Source: Variovorax sp. Root318D1 (lineage in GTDB: Bacteria > Pseudomonadota > Gammaproteobacteria > Burkholderiales > Burkholderiaceae_C). From it: a stretch of 64,000 nt of DNA. Shown here one piece after another: positions 55,390 to 59,242 of the stretch. The notes under the pieces were generated by a model. The model saw only the letters and a list, made by a program, of their open reading frames with translations, was not told the DNA's origin and ran no database searches. The stretch lies in the NCBI RefSeq assembly GCF_001424835.1, contig NZ_LMCQ01000019.1, forward strand, positions 355,011 through 419,010, written 5' to 3'. The first letter of the stretch is position 1, and the number at the start of each line of letters is the position of its first letter. The position numbers were made by a program, and so were the translations under genes.

Positions 55390-56220
55390 TTAGGTCGCCC
55401 AGATGCGCGGAGAACTCGCGGGCAATTGCCACAGCTCGGCGCGCCATGCCTGCCACACCTGCCGCAGCAGCTGCATAGCGGGCTCGACCACTGGCGCGAG
55501 CACGCGCAGCACAACGATCTCGGCATGCGGGCTCGTCGCACCCGCGCTCTCCTGCAGGCCGTGCGCATCGATGGCCGTGCGCGCGAGCGCAAGCAGCGCC
55601 TCGCGCCGCGCCTTCGTGGCCGGCGTACCCGTCACGAAGAACAGCGATGCAATGCAGCGGTGCCCGCCGAAGCCCAGCGGACTTTGCAGCAGCCGATGGT
55701 CCGCCGCATCGATGCGTCCGCGTTCGAGCCACACACCGGGCACTTCGATGTGCTGCAGATAGGTGCCGCGCTCGAATGGCTGGTTGGCATTCGGCAGGCC
55801 GAGAGCGGTCACGTCCCAGCCGATCATCTCTGCGCCAGCTTCGGCCTCGATGGTGAGTCGGTTCTCCGCCCGGCAGCCGCTGTAGCAGATCGCCTCCAGC
55901 GGCAGCCACTCGAGCCGCGCGCCCTTGGCAAGCCGGATGCGCGTGCGCTGCAGCGCCAGCTCGCCTTCAGAGCGGTAGAAGCGCGATGCACCGGGTGTGG
56001 TGATCAGCCCATGGCTGCCGTCCGCCGCCTCGATGTCGATGTCCAGCGTGTCGCCGCCCACCAGCCCGCCTGGCGGGTGCACCAGCACGTTGTGGCAGAT
56101 CGCATCTCCCTCCGGATAGAGGCTCTGAAGAATTCGAAGCGGCCCGTCATGGCGAAAGCGCGCGACGCTGCGAGCGGATTCGTGCCGGTAATCGAGATGG
56201 AGACGTGCGTGCCAGGACAT
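55390..56220 (-). CDS. ureD: Urease accessory protein UreD
   Basis: A 276-residue urease-activation protein. The diagnostic block is HPPGGLVGGDTLDIDI, with TTPGASRFYRS and EAICYSGC. UreD joins UreF and UreG on apo-urease to load nickel. No urease subunit or other accessory gene is adjacent: the gene downstream is a convergent LysR and the one upstream, 39 bases away on the same strand, is a purine-type deaminase. It may therefore be transcribed from the riboswitch-controlled promoter upstream. Confidence 0.92.
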   Translation of the reverse strand: MSWHARLHLDYRHESARSVARFRHDGPLRILQSLYPEGDAICHNVLVHPPGGLVGGDTLDIDIEAADGSHGLITTPGASRFYRSEGELALQRTRIRLAKGARLEWLPLEAICYSGCRAENRLTIEAEAGAEMIGWDVTALGLPNANQPFERGTYLQHIEVPGVWLERGRIDAADHRLLQSPLGFGGHRCIASLFFVTGTPATKARREALLALARTAIDAHGLQESAGATSPHAEIVVLRVLAPVVEPAMQLLRQVWQAWRAELWQLPASSPRIWAT

Positions 56221-56259: not shown

Positions 56260-56796
56260 CTAGCTGGCCCACGCTCCATCGTGGGCGGCGCTGGCTTCAT
56301 GAAGCAGTGCAGGCCCGATGCATTCGATCGGATGCGGAGAGGCGCGGAACACGTCTCGGCACGACAGCTCCGCGTCGCGCTGATCCTGCCGCTCGCCGCG
56401 GAACACGCGCAGCCGCTCGGCGTCGATGCCGTACACCACGCGGCCGATGTTCGACCAGAAGATGGCGCCCGCGCACATCACGCAGGGCTCGCCCGATGCA
56501 TAAAGGGTGGCGCTGGCAAGCTCCTCGCGCGTGAGGCCGCGCCCCGCGAGTGCGCGCAGGGCGTTCACCTCCGCGTGCGCCGTGCAGTCGCCGGTCTCGG
56601 CATTGCTGTTTCCCGCTTCGGCCAGCACTTCGCCGTCGGCCGAGACGATGAGCGAGCCAAAGGGCCGGTTGCCTCGGCGCCGAGCCGCATGCGACCAGAC
56701 GATGGCCTTGCGAAGGTAGCGTTCGTCGCGCTCGTCGAGCGTGGTTTCTTCAGGGAATGCGATGTGGCTGCCAGCGGAATTCATGTCTTCGATCAT
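56260..56796 (-). CDS. Zinc nucleoside/guanine deaminase
   Basis: A 178-residue cytidine-deaminase-fold enzyme with HAE (74-76) and PCVMC (C105, C108) providing zinc and catalytic residues. The extended C-terminus (CRDVF...IECIGPALLHE) resembles bacterial guanine deaminases of this fold. Its ATG overlaps the receptor gene stop (ATGA), so they are translationally coupled. In a transcript led by a xanthine-type riboswitch, conversion of guanine to xanthine is the natural reading, but substrate is not proven. Confidence 0.87.
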   Translation of the reverse strand: MIEDMNSAGSHIAFPEETTLDERDERYLRKAIVWSHAARRRGNRPFGSLIVSADGEVLAEAGNSNAETGDCTAHAEVNALRALAGRGLTREELASATLYASGEPCVMCAGAIFWSNIGRVVYGIDAERLRVFRGERQDQRDAELSCRDVFRASPHPIECIGPALLHEASAAHDGAWAS

Positions 56797-57827
56797 GTCT
56801 TGAGTGGGGTTCGTTCGCTGCGCAATGGCAGCATCGAAGTATTGAAGATCGCGTCAGACGCGGGCTTGACCTTGAGGCCGAATACTTCGACGACCTCGTC
56901 GACCTGCAGCTCTAGCGTGAGCTTGTTGATGTCGCCCAGGCCGTGGCTTCGCGTATCGGCGGCGCCCACATATTGCGCCGTGACGCCCCAGCGTTCAAGC
57001 TCCATCCTTTCGTCGAGGATGGGTTCGCGCTGGCGCAGGGCCGCAATGCTGGGCGCGGGGTTGGCAAAGGTTTCGACGATGGCTCGGTTGGTGGCGCGCA
57101 GAAAGGCCGCAACCAGCTTCGGATTTTGAGCGATCAGGTTGCTGCTCGCGAGAATGGCGTTACCGTACAGGTTGACGCCCGCATCCGCATATTTGAGCAC
57201 CGACAGCTCCTCGGGCTTCATGCGCGCAAAGAGCGAAATGGCCGAGTCATGAAAGTAAGTGGCGGCATCCACGTCGCCGCGCACCATCACGTTGTCGCGC
57301 GCGCTGAAGTCGGTGGTCTGCCACTGGAAGGCATCGCTGCGCATGCCCTGCTTGCGCGCCACCATCGGCCACGCACGGCGTGTCGATTCGACCGCCGCGG
57401 CCGCCACCTTCTTGCCGGCCAGGCTCTTGAAGTCGGTCGTCACTCCACGGTCCTTGCGGCCGATGATCACGAAGGGCGCGCGGTTGTAGTACTGGTACAC
57501 GGCCTGGACCATCGGTGTGCCGGGGTTCTGCGCATTGAACTCCACCAGCGAGCTGATGTCGCCCAGGCCCATCTGGTAGACGCCGCTTGCAATGCGCGTG
57601 ATCGACGCGACCGATCCGGCGCCGGTGTCGATGGTCACGTCCAGCCCTTCGTCCCTGTAGTAGCCCTTGCTGTGCGCAAGAAAGAACGGGGCGGTCTGAC
57701 CGTTGATGCGGAAGTCGAGCGTGAACTTGAGTGGAGTCAGCTTGCCGCCGCTCTGGGCGAACACGGCGGGCGCGGCGAGAGGGAGCAGGGCGGCGGCGCT
57801 GGCGCCAAGAAAAAGTCGACGTTGCAT
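56793..57827 (-). CDS. NMT1/THI5-like ABC transporter substrate-binding protein
   Basis: A periplasmic receptor of 344 residues with a signal peptide (RRLFLGASAAALLPLAAPAV, cleavage near VFAQ). The NMT1-like fold shows LDFRINGQTAPFFLAHSKGY and GSVASITRIASGVYQMGLGD. This family binds pyrimidine or purine-like compounds and sulfonates. No permease or ATPase is next to it; a matching permease begins 5.5 kb to the right on the same strand. A xanthine-type riboswitch lies in its leader, so a purine ligand is likely. Confidence 0.9.
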   Translation of the reverse strand: MQRRLFLGASAAALLPLAAPAVFAQSGGKLTPLKFTLDFRINGQTAPFFLAHSKGYYRDEGLDVTIDTGAGSVASITRIASGVYQMGLGDISSLVEFNAQNPGTPMVQAVYQYYNRAPFVIIGRKDRGVTTDFKSLAGKKVAAAAVESTRRAWPMVARKQGMRSDAFQWQTTDFSARDNVMVRGDVDAATYFHDSAISLFARMKPEELSVLKYADAGVNLYGNAILASSNLIAQNPKLVAAFLRATNRAIVETFANPAPSIAALRQREPILDERMELERWGVTAQYVGAADTRSHGLGDINKLTLELQVDEVVEVFGLKVKPASDAIFNTSMLPLRSERTPLKT

Positions 57828-57882
57828 GTGGGGCCTCGGAATCTATTGAGTCTTGAATCCCCTGCACAAGACAGAGGCACTT

Positions 57883-57946
57883 CAAGAGCAATTTCCGGGC
57901 GGGCGCACAACGGTGGTGCGTGCGCTGCTGAACGCTTCTACTCTTG
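57883..57946 (-). promoter_or_regulatory. Candidate xanthine riboswitch (NMT1 motif), leader of the receptor-deaminase unit
   Basis: Read on the reverse strand: CAAGAG, then TAGAAGCGTTCAGC, a stem GCGCAC / GTGCGC with an 11-base loop, then GGAAATTG and CTCTTG, which pairs with the first hexamer as a six-base P1. The two conserved strings are the core of the xanthine-I/NMT1 riboswitch as I recall it. It ends 56 bases before the receptor ATG. The same strings occur in the opposite leader. No alignment to the covariance model was run. Confidence 0.82.
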
Positions 57947-58017
57947 CGGGCGCTGATGCACGAGCCATGCCAAGCCGCATGCCACGGTCTTTTGCTCGGG
58001 CATTGCACACGGGTGCT

Positions 58018-58045
58018 TTGAAGAGGCGCGGCCCCGAGCCACAAT
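58018..58045 (+). promoter_or_regulatory. Possible promoter for the Rieske gene
   Basis: TTGAAG and CACAAT are 16 bases apart and would start transcription about 25 bases before the riboswitch. The -10 match is poor. A promoter for the opposite transcript must lie in the same 130-base centre but was not resolved. Confidence 0.3.
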
Positions 58046-58076
58046 GCGGGCGCGCAATTTGCAAGTCGGATGGCGC

Positions 58077-58118
58077 AGAGTAGAAGCGTTCAGCCCCCGC
58101 GGCAGGAAATTGCTCTTT
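58077..58118 (+). promoter_or_regulatory. Candidate xanthine riboswitch (NMT1 motif), leader of the Rieske gene
   Basis: AGAG-TAGAAGCGTTCAGC, a short GCC / GGC stem, and GGAAATTG-CTCT. It shares an exact 18-base and a 13-base string with the element on the other strand; the central stem is shorter. P1 is only four pairs here, so this copy may be weaker. It lies 42 bases before the ATG, with AAGGAG at 58147-58152 available for sequestration. Confidence 0.8.
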
Positions 58119-58159
58119 CAAGTTCGTACGTACCCACGCGCAACAGAAGGAGTCCACGC

Positions 58160-59242
58160 ATGCTCGTCACCCAACAACCCGTCTTCCGCAAGTTCTGGCA
58201 TGCCGTCATGCCGCTCACCGACCTGGCCAAGGGCCCGAAGCCTTTCAGGCTGCTGGGCGAAGACATCGTTCTCTTCATCGACGCCGACGGCCAGCCGGCC
58301 GCCCTGCGCGACCGCTGCTGCCATCGCACCGCCAAGCTGTCGAGAGGCTGGTGCGTCGATGCCGAAGGCCAGGCCTGCGGGCAGGGCGCCATTCAGTGCG
58401 GCTACCACGGCTGGACCTACGACCGCAGCGGACAGGTGATCCGCATCCCGCAGTACGAGGCCGACCGCAAGATTTCGCCGGAGTACAAGACAACGGCCTA
58501 TCGCTGCACTGCGCGCTACGGCTACGCATGGGTGGCGCTCGAAGAACCCATTGCCGACATTCCCGCCATTCCGGAGTTCGACGATCCGGGCTACCGCACC
58601 ATCTTCCAGTTTTATGAAGAGTGGCAGACCAGCCCGATGCGTGCGCTCGAGAATTCTTTCGACAACTCGCATTTCAGCTTTGTGCACCGCGCCACCTTCG
58701 GCGTGGCCGCGAGCCCGAAGCCGAGCAAGTACGAACTGGTGGAAAACGAGAACGGCTTCTATGCCGAGACGGTGATCGAGGCGGTGAACCCCGTCAAGTT
58801 TCACGCCATCAGCGGCGTGACCGATCCGATCACCACGCGCCACATGCGCAACGCCTACTTCCTGCCGTTCTCGCGCCGGCTCGACATCGAGTATCCGAGC
58901 GGCGTGCGCCACATCATCATCAACTGCTTCACGCCCATCGACGACGGCCGCATGCAGCTGTGCCAATGGCTGTTCCGCAACGACACCGAGGCCGACTGCA
59001 CCGCGCAGATGCTGATCGACTTCGACGAGGCGGTGACGCGCGAGGACAAGGACATCCTCGAATCGACCGACCCCGATGCGCTGGTCGACACGCGGCGGCG
59101 GGGTGTCGAGTATTCGATGGAATCGGACCGGCCCGGCATGCTGATCCGCAAGCACCTGATGCAGCTGCTGGCGAAGCACGGCGAGGCGGAGATCTACCGC
59201 GGCATGACGAGCGCGACCATTCCGATTGCAAAAGCCGCTTGA
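58160..59242 (+). CDS. Rieske non-haem iron oxygenase, candidate xanthine/purine hydroxylase
   Basis: A 360-residue single-subunit oxygenase. The Rieske cluster is bound by C53-x-H55 and C80-x2-H83, with a longer spacer than usual. The mononuclear iron site is D168-x2-H171-x4-H176 in ENSFDNSHFSFVH. The ATG giving MLVTQQPVF is chosen for AAGGAG seven bases upstream. Context of a xanthine-type riboswitch suggests an HpxD-like purine hydroxylase or an N-demethylase of methylxanthines; family alone would also allow vanillate-type demethylases. No reductase partner gene is adjacent. Confidence 0.88.
   Translation: MLVTQQPVFRKFWHAVMPLTDLAKGPKPFRLLGEDIVLFIDADGQPAALRDRCCHRTAKLSRGWCVDAEGQACGQGAIQCGYHGWTYDRSGQVIRIPQYEADRKISPEYKTTAYRCTARYGYAWVALEEPIADIPAIPEFDDPGYRTIFQFYEEWQTSPMRALENSFDNSHFSFVHRATFGVAASPKPSKYELVENENGFYAETVIEAVNPVKFHAISGVTDPITTRHMRNAYFLPFSRRLDIEYPSGVRHIIINCFTPIDDGRMQLCQWLFRNDTEADCTAQMLIDFDEAVTREDKDILESTDPDALVDTRRRGVEYSMESDRPGMLIRKHLMQLLAKHGEAEIYRGMTSATIPIAKAA

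Follow-up and report, generated by a model that had tools for sequence, protein, structure and literature searches.

Divergent xanthine riboswitch aptamers at sigma-54-type promoters in Variovorax: a candidate nitrogen and xanthine AND gate with a predicted ON sign

Introduction

The interval between two divergent genes of Variovorax sp. Root318D1 contains an inverted repeat, which raises the question of whether its two halves are RNA switches and, if so, what they govern, when they are transcribed and in which direction xanthine acts on them. A preliminary description of the sequence had read the repeat as two xanthine-type (NMT1) riboswitches placed back to back, one for each transcript. The DNA analysed, referred to here as the window, is a 64 kb stretch of this genome (NZ_LMCQ01000019.1, 355,011-419,010), and all coordinates below are window positions.

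Results

Two aptamers of the xanthine riboswitch family

The Rfam covariance model, run on both strands, gave significant matches to RF03054 on opposite strands, which bears out the NMT1/xanthine identity previously proposed. Both aptamers exceed the family's gathering score of 36 bits. The aptamers and the genes around them are as follows.

57828-58159, intergenic interval between the two divergent genes
57881..57948, minus strand, xanthine (NMT1) riboswitch aptamer of the transporter arm (RF03054, 54.2 bits, E 2.8e-9)
58073..58120, plus strand, xanthine (NMT1) riboswitch aptamer of the oxygenase arm (RF03054, 48.2 bits, E 1.3e-7)
56793..57827, minus strand, NMT1/THI5-like ABC substrate-binding protein (PF09084, E 2.1e-36)
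56260..56796, minus strand, zinc deaminase, TadA-like (PF00383, E 8.6e-22)
55390..56220, minus strand, UreD urease accessory protein (PF01774), the sole UreD match in the genome
58160..59242, plus strand, Rieske non-haem iron oxygenase (PF00355 and PF19112)

A search of the entire 64 kb with Rfam at gathering scores returned three matches, namely a tRNA (1232-1318) and the two xanthine aptamers, and a search of the whole genome with RF03054 found these two aptamers only. Each copy is oriented outward to its own gene, as first described, with the NMT1/THI5-like protein at 57827 (minus) and the Rieske oxygenase at 58160 (plus). The leaders in which the aptamers sit belong to gene kinds listed for the class (NMT1/THI5-like protein and deaminase on one side, Rieske oxygenase on the other). 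Judged by sequence, both elements are near certain to be members of the xanthine riboswitch family, and ligand binding is predicted.

The geometry of the repeat was largely as first reported. The exact 18-base arms (57927-57944 and 58077-58094) are 100% complementary and separated by 132 nt, close to the estimate of about 130, and the exact 13-base arm is contained in a second pair of arms (57884-57901 and 58100-58117; 18 nt, 89%). Both arm strings occur once per strand across the window. The central stems are indeed unequal, a longer stem facing one of 3 pairs, as is directly visible in the sequence; whether through this or through P1, the two arms might differ in sensitivity, as the preliminary description suggested. 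For P1, counts of six and four pairs had been given; the difference of two stands, but the absolute counts do not, because two inner pairs had been omitted. P1 in the Rfam model has six pairs in both copies, and the difference arises from two extra outer pairs, seen by eye in the minus-strand copy (CAAGAGUA/UGCUCUUG).

The minus-strand aptamer heads a row of genes for the NMT1/THI5-like protein, the TadA-like deaminase and UreD, and the plus-strand aptamer heads one gene, that of the Rieske oxygenase. The PDB sequence relatives of the Rieske protein include SxtT/SxtDIOX and the methylxanthine demethylases NdmA and NdmB. The genome has a single urease alpha match, on the same contig but about 198 kb from UreD. 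Because the sole UreD stands behind the transporter-side aptamer, remote from urease alpha, the transporter-side riboswitch may control urease maturation as well.

The inverted repeat and the divergence of its halves

Arms that are exact over 18 and 13 bases would also be expected if the repeat were a DNA element, either an operator palindrome or a recent inverted duplication, and not two RNA switches. Against this, the covariance model is passed by both copies, and the two copies resemble each other much less than orthologues do. Among 68 own-genus pairs, the two mates of a pair differ by 21.8 edits on average, compared with 5.7 between transporter-side orthologues and 15.3 between Rieske-side orthologues, and on neither side does the mate come as close as the nearest orthologue in any of the 68 genomes (0/68). 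The arms also carry specific tails that fit their own leaders, CUCUUGAA or CUCUUGAG in 65/68 transporter arms and CUCUUUCA in 65/68 Rieske arms. Conservation as a palindrome alone, which the preliminary description had named as fatal to its reading, is thus not what is seen, as the mates diverge and the covariance model is matched twice. We consider a DNA element extremely improbable; on the sequence, the presence of two conserved aptamer cores accounts for the repeat. The same distances speak against an origin of the pair by gene conversion or by a recent inverted duplication, and both were rejected. In the same 68 genomes, the transporter-arm tails read CTCTTGAA (54) or CTCTTGAG (11), and the Rieske-arm tails CTCTTTCA (65) or CTCTTTGA (3).

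Conservation of the divergent pair

RF03054 was found in 75 of 399 genomes of the strain's own family, with 128 matches. A divergent aptamer pair is present in 44 of these 75 aptamer-bearing genomes, at a spacing of 59-305 nt (median 146), and in 43 of the 44 the pair stands between genes for a transporter-side protein and an oxygenase, with one of the oxygenase assignments uncertain. By first gene, 33 pairs are transporter/2OG-Fe(II) dioxygenase and 9 are transporter/Rieske; of the remaining 2, one sets a transporter against a misread frame (probably a dioxygenase) and one a dioxygenase against a deaminase. The identity of the dioxygenase was checked on two members (PF03171, PF14226), and that of the second transporter type on one (PF09084). 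Since the two kinds of locus share the sensor pair, the pair appears to have been kept while the oxygenase was exchanged. Such an exchange is seen within the own genus, where a dioxygenase replaces the Rieske gene in G347 and G438.

Within the own genus, the aptamer family occurs in 92/101 genomes, and a regular expression found the transporter/Rieske divergent pair in 68 of 81 distinct genomes (55-621 nt apart, median 112), a lower bound, since the expression misses variant cores such as the dioxygenase arm of G347. The 81 genomes come from 94 own-genus loci, 13 of which are repeat copies or second loci. Genomes positive for RF03054 numbered 17/398 in a sample of the phylum, 4/369 in the class and 17/399 in the order, samples in which the own family is included. 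The divergent xanthine-aptamer pair is a conserved design in the own family. Adjacent aptamers in opposing orientations have been depicted for H. intermedia S1 (legend to Fig. 5 of Yu and Breaker 2020, PMC7373994), so the back-to-back placement was already published for one species, and its frequency across the own family is the addition made here.

Several variants of the arrangement were observed. In one genome (L243, G435) the Rieske-side aptamer is tandemly duplicated, with starts at 1242 and 1309 (plus) and 19 nt between the copies, within one leader. Three genomes (G452, G415 and G442; L200, L207 and L225) have 590-621 nt between the aptamers and a UUUG tail in the Rieske leader; a fourth own-genus case of the UUUG tail is G418 (L277). 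Relatives of the dioxygenase with 70-73% identity occur in distant bacteria (L161; L183, Rhodococcus; L185, Alkanindiges), where no aptamer was found by the regular expression, which misses variant cores. In these three loci the dioxygenase may have spread without the switch.

Sigma-54-type promoters beside the aptamers

Sigma-54 promoters have the consensus GG-N10-GC at -24/-12 plus flanking bases. An alignment of 64 distinct own-genus gap sequences revealed two conserved blocks, one beside each aptamer, which we take to be this -24/-12 pattern. The corresponding sites in the window are GGGCGCGCAATTTGCA and TGGCATGGCTCGTGCA, both of which carry the GG-N10-GC of the consensus. Neither these sites nor the expression platforms described below figured in the preliminary description.

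57957..57972, minus strand, sigma-54-type promoter TGGCATG-N4-GTGCA of the transporter arm (PWM 13.3, shuffled p 0.005)
58048..58063, plus strand, sigma-54-type promoter GGGCGCG-N4-TTGCA of the oxygenase arm (PWM 13.9, shuffled p 0.005)

The C of the -12 GC precedes the aptamer hit by 9 nt in the transporter arm and by 10 nt in the oxygenase arm. With this C taken as -12, the predicted +1 positions fall near 57946 (minus) and 58074 (plus), 2-3 nt ahead of P1. The genome contains two RpoN matches (PF04552) and one NtrC match over the cut-off. A simple scan of 57800-58200 found no sigma-70 promoter, and no intrinsic terminator was found in the same interval.

A weight matrix built from this general consensus was scored over the 60 nt upstream of each of the 128 family aptamers. 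A site with shuffled p <= 0.05 was obtained for 119/128, and in 116 of those the GC is placed with its C 7-12 nt upstream of the Rfam hit. A score of at least 9.8 at 7-12 nt was reached by 115/128 aptamers, compared with 0.2% of 20,000 positions drawn at random from the same loci, and was missing in 13; the bare GG-N10-GC rule also held for 115/128, compared with 8.3% of random places. By arm, the shuffled test was passed by 56/56 transporter, 35/39 dioxygenase and 22/27 Rieske aptamers. Four dioxygenase arms of one genus (g72; L060, L071, L040, L050) have no site at the usual distance, and their transporter arms have one.

A second set comprised named contigs and further loci, 112 in all, two of which are RpoN loci. 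Of these, 42 yielded aptamers to the regular expression, and 54/58 distinct aptamers pass, at 6-13 nt, in genomes that partly overlap with the others. A sigma-54-type site was present for 5/5 aptamers found in Pseudomonas dryadis, two Azoarcus, Cupriavidus necator and Ralstonia sp. ASV6. Outside the own family, 11 of 24 aptamer hits pass the site test, and all 11 belong to the 18 hits that exceed the gathering score. The 7 of these 18 that fail belong to G603 (2), G804 (1), G654 (1) and G721 (3); G603 and G804 are from other classes of the phylum, and two of the G721 aptamers are preceded by a good sigma-54-type site that lies farther off, at 22-26 nt.

Two further loci (L313, L315) have sub-threshold aptamer-like hits with a good sigma-54-type site at 17-18 nt, a variant core GUGAUUGCUCUCC and a complementary UUGGGAG downstream, and are possibly a diverged sub-class. 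In 8 of the 68 own-genus genomes (L196, L213, L217, L218, L221, L222, L223, L234), the aptamers are only 55-58 nt apart. Gaps of this length are filled by the two promoters, which would place any activator site outside the gap.

The position and frequency of these sites make it very likely that sigma-54 drives both transcripts. With a site 7-12 nt ahead of the aptamer, each transcript should begin with the aptamer.

Proposed expression platform of the oxygenase arm

The oxygenase and transporter leaders contain the following candidate switching elements.

58112..58119, plus strand, GCUCUUUC, P1 3' strand and extension, proposed anti-Shine-Dalgarno strand without ligand (8 pairs with 58146-58153)
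58146..58153, plus strand, GAAGGAGU, Shine-Dalgarno region of the oxygenase gene, hidden in the proposed ligand-free fold
57881..57887, minus strand, UCUUGAA, P1 3' strand/extension, 5' arm of the anti-P1 hairpin
57851..57857, minus strand, UUCAAGA, partner of UCUUGAA in the transporter leader (anti-P1 hairpin, 3' arm)
57833..57841, minus strand, UUCCGAGGC, ribosome-binding region of the transporter gene (predicted fold)

The Rieske alignment contained 51 of 52 leaders, since L243 has an overlapping pair of which only the shorter was kept; identical leaders were entered once. In these 51 distinct own-genus leaders, 99.8% of the 408 cells of the GCUCUUUC/GAAGGAGU helix are paired. The outer pair is C-G in 47, G-C in 3 and unpaired in 1; the other 7/8 pairs are invariant and therefore uninformative on covariation. 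Among 500 shuffles, the observed doubly changed cells were reached by 0 and the doubly changed pairs by 98. Sliding the partner by 2 or 3 columns gave covariation of 0.039 and 0.037, compared with 0.028 in register, with only 69-71% of cells pairing.

Taken alone, the window's own oxygenase helix was marginal against shuffles (p 0.075). Across 20 genera, pairing of the Rieske aptamer tail is stronger with its own leader than with one from another genus (genus-level Wilcoxon p 0.002), and the own leader beats the ribosome sites of 227 control genes (p 0.001). The dioxygenase leaders gave p 0.13 in the swap test and p 0.53 in the control-gene test (0.12 for leaders up to 100 nt); 14 dioxygenase starts had been reassigned before the leader tests (earlier start inside KEARMGG).

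Proposed expression platform of the transporter arm

When P1 is open, the predicted fold has the core strand GCCCGGAA (57893-57900) paired with UUCCGAGGC, so that the ribosome site is covered. The alignment contained 65 of 66 leaders (L255 dropped, identical leaders entered once), and 96.7% of the 455 cells of the UCUUGAA/UUCAAGA helix are paired in these own-genus leaders. Its outer pair changes from A-U to G-C in 4 leaders and to G-U in 3, and is unpaired in 5. The doubly changed cells were reached by 3 of 500 shuffles and the covariation score by 67. The own GCCCGGAA/UUCCGAGGC duplex ranks at percentile 0.47 among control ribosome sites, that is, no better than average. The transporter leaders gave p 0.11 in the swap test and p 0.12 in the control-gene test (0.017 for leaders up to 100 nt). 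The G215 transporter ORF, which is broken near its start, was left out of both tests and of the full transporter folding.

An OFF mechanism for the transporter arm through GCCUC/GAGGC pairing was considered and dropped: own-genus leaders with CCGGAGA-type sites are without this pairing, and the predicted fold is ON.

Predicted sign of switching

The cost of opening the ribosome site was computed with P1 forced and with P1 penalised, and compared with linker-shuffled leaders; a difference of more than 1 kcal was called ON or OFF. The P1 3' strand (CUCUU) resembles an anti-Shine-Dalgarno sequence in any case, which is why the shuffled-linker controls matter. The folding model ignores tertiary structure and cotranscriptional folding. 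In total, 121/128 aptamers were folded, six with other or unclear genes being left out. The first round covered all 18 Rieske and 12 dioxygenase leaders of up to 60 nt and 8 chosen transporter leaders, and the second all 55 transporter leaders.

For leaders up to 60 nt, 15/18 Rieske leaders were predicted ON and 0 OFF (genus-level p 0.0001), and 12/12 dioxygenase leaders ON (p 0.008). Longer Rieske leaders were ON in 6/9 and OFF in 1 (p 0.04). Dioxygenase leaders of 61-100 nt were ON in 2/4 and OFF in 1, and those above 100 nt were ON in 6/23 and OFF in 0, with small effects (p 0.0002). Transporter leaders up to 100 nt were ON in 24/38 and OFF in 3 (p 0.002); of the 17 above 100 nt, 4 were ON and 4 OFF (p 0.68).

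Both arms of the window were predicted ON, with -4.34 kcal for the oxygenase arm (-0.27 in shuffles) and -2.29 kcal for the transporter arm (+0.85 in shuffles, +0.41 in a second run). Other own-genus transporter leaders were predicted ON (G285, G122) or OFF (G347, +1.16). On these folding predictions the oxygenase arm is probably an ON switch; the transporter arm is suggested to be one too, with less assurance than the oxygenase arm.

Discussion

Weighing the sign

The same aptamers and promoters would also serve if both arms were OFF switches, through which xanthine would repress translation of the genes for its uptake and oxidation in a feedback loop. This reading is favoured by the fact that riboswitches usually repress transporter genes in this manner. 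It is also the published sign: Yu and Breaker (2020, RNA 26:960; PMC7373994) report OFF for the class, a ligand-dead point mutant of one Hydrogenophaga intermedia leader exceeding the wild type in an E. coli reporter assay, and a crystal-structure paper repeats the assignment on their authority (PMC8266621). That assay, however, compares the wild type with one mutant, and in the parts of the article available the text mentions no added ligand (PMC7373994). The predicted folds, moreover, are mostly ON, in 21/27 Rieske, 20/39 dioxygenase and 28/55 transporter leaders, with OFF predicted for 1, 1 and 7, respectively. The GCCUC/GAGGC pairing, which could mask the ribosome site with P1 closed, is visible by eye in some own-genus transporter leaders and is absent from the rest. 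We regard OFF switching of both arms as rather unlikely.

The arms might instead have opposite signs, xanthine switching the oxygenase ON but the transporter operon OFF, in which case uptake would cease once oxidation begins. Their platforms do differ, with direct anti-Shine-Dalgarno pairing in the oxygenase leader and an upstream anti-P1 hairpin in the transporter leader, and the transporter leaders predicted OFF include one of the own genus (G347). The window's own transporter leader is nevertheless predicted ON, as are those of G285 and G122, and we give opposite signs a small probability. ON switching of both arms is the reading we adopt below.

A combined model

In the model we favour, each divergent transcript would carry one xanthine riboswitch and would start at a sigma-54 (RpoN) promoter, the RNA beginning with the aptamer; both the use of the promoters and the start are deduced from the sites. 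Sigma-54 with NtrC usually serves the response to nitrogen shortage. Transcription from a sigma-54 promoter should need an activator such as NtrC, and hence, presumably, nitrogen shortage. As long as no ligand is bound, the aptamer's 3' half would pair downstream and mask the Shine-Dalgarno region. In the oxygenase leader, GCUCUUUC would pair directly with GAAGGAGU; in the transporter leader, the UCUUGAA/UUCAAGA hairpin would form and GCCCGGAA would lie on the UUCCGAGGC ribosome site, an arrangement that is predicted and has limited covariation support. Binding of xanthine or urate would keep P1 closed and free the ribosome site, so that both arms would be translated when xanthine is present. 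The locus would then act as an AND gate, in which nitrogen shortage together with xanthine induces purine uptake, deamination and ring oxidation.

The whole model, that is, two riboswitches on sigma-54 promoters with ON sign and a nitrogen/xanthine AND gate, seems to us reasonably probable. Its extension to the own family and to some beta- and gamma-proteobacteria, with a sigma-54-built arrangement, the aptamer transcribed first, an ON sign and most members departing from the published OFF sign, we put at even chances.

Comparison with known systems

The add adenine riboswitch of Vibrio vulnificus is a translational ON switch, in which the ligand-closed P1 frees the Shine-Dalgarno sequence from the P1 3' strand. 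The release proposed here is alike, whereas the aptamer class, promoter and genes differ. With the published xanthine (NMT1) class, RF03054, the elements share aptamer sequence and structure, and also gene neighbours (NMT1/THI5-like, tauA-like, dioxygenases, tadA-like; PMC7373994). The proposed translational platform agrees with that account as well, but the sign differs, being predicted ON here and published as OFF for the leader of another genus. H. intermedia was absent among the best 80 of 587 matches, in which Hydrogenophaga MAGs were present. A further difference is that here sigma-54-type promoters abut the aptamers and the divergent pair is common in the own family. In the main text of PMC7373994, rpoN, ntrC and the transcription start do not appear, and nitrogen appears only in a reference title. 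In the literature searched, most of it short of full texts, we found no sigma-54 association of xanthine aptamers, no account of ligand-free xanthine aptamers covering the ribosome site until xanthine releases it, and no riboswitch class coupled to a single alternative sigma factor at an almost constant distance. The Klebsiella hpx genes (Riva et al. 2008, as described in PMC7373994) are alike in oxygenase-based use of hypoxanthine and xanthine as nitrogen sources, a likeness drawn from that description.

Biological meaning

Yu and Breaker linked no oxidised-purine breakdown genes to the class and suggested that xanthine is perhaps watched for metabolic uses that are not readily apparent (PMC7373994). 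If the model is true, it would supply such a use, and the sign of the xanthine riboswitch class becomes directly testable. Purines would then be an emergency nitrogen source for these bacteria, their use being induced only with nitrogen short and xanthine at hand.
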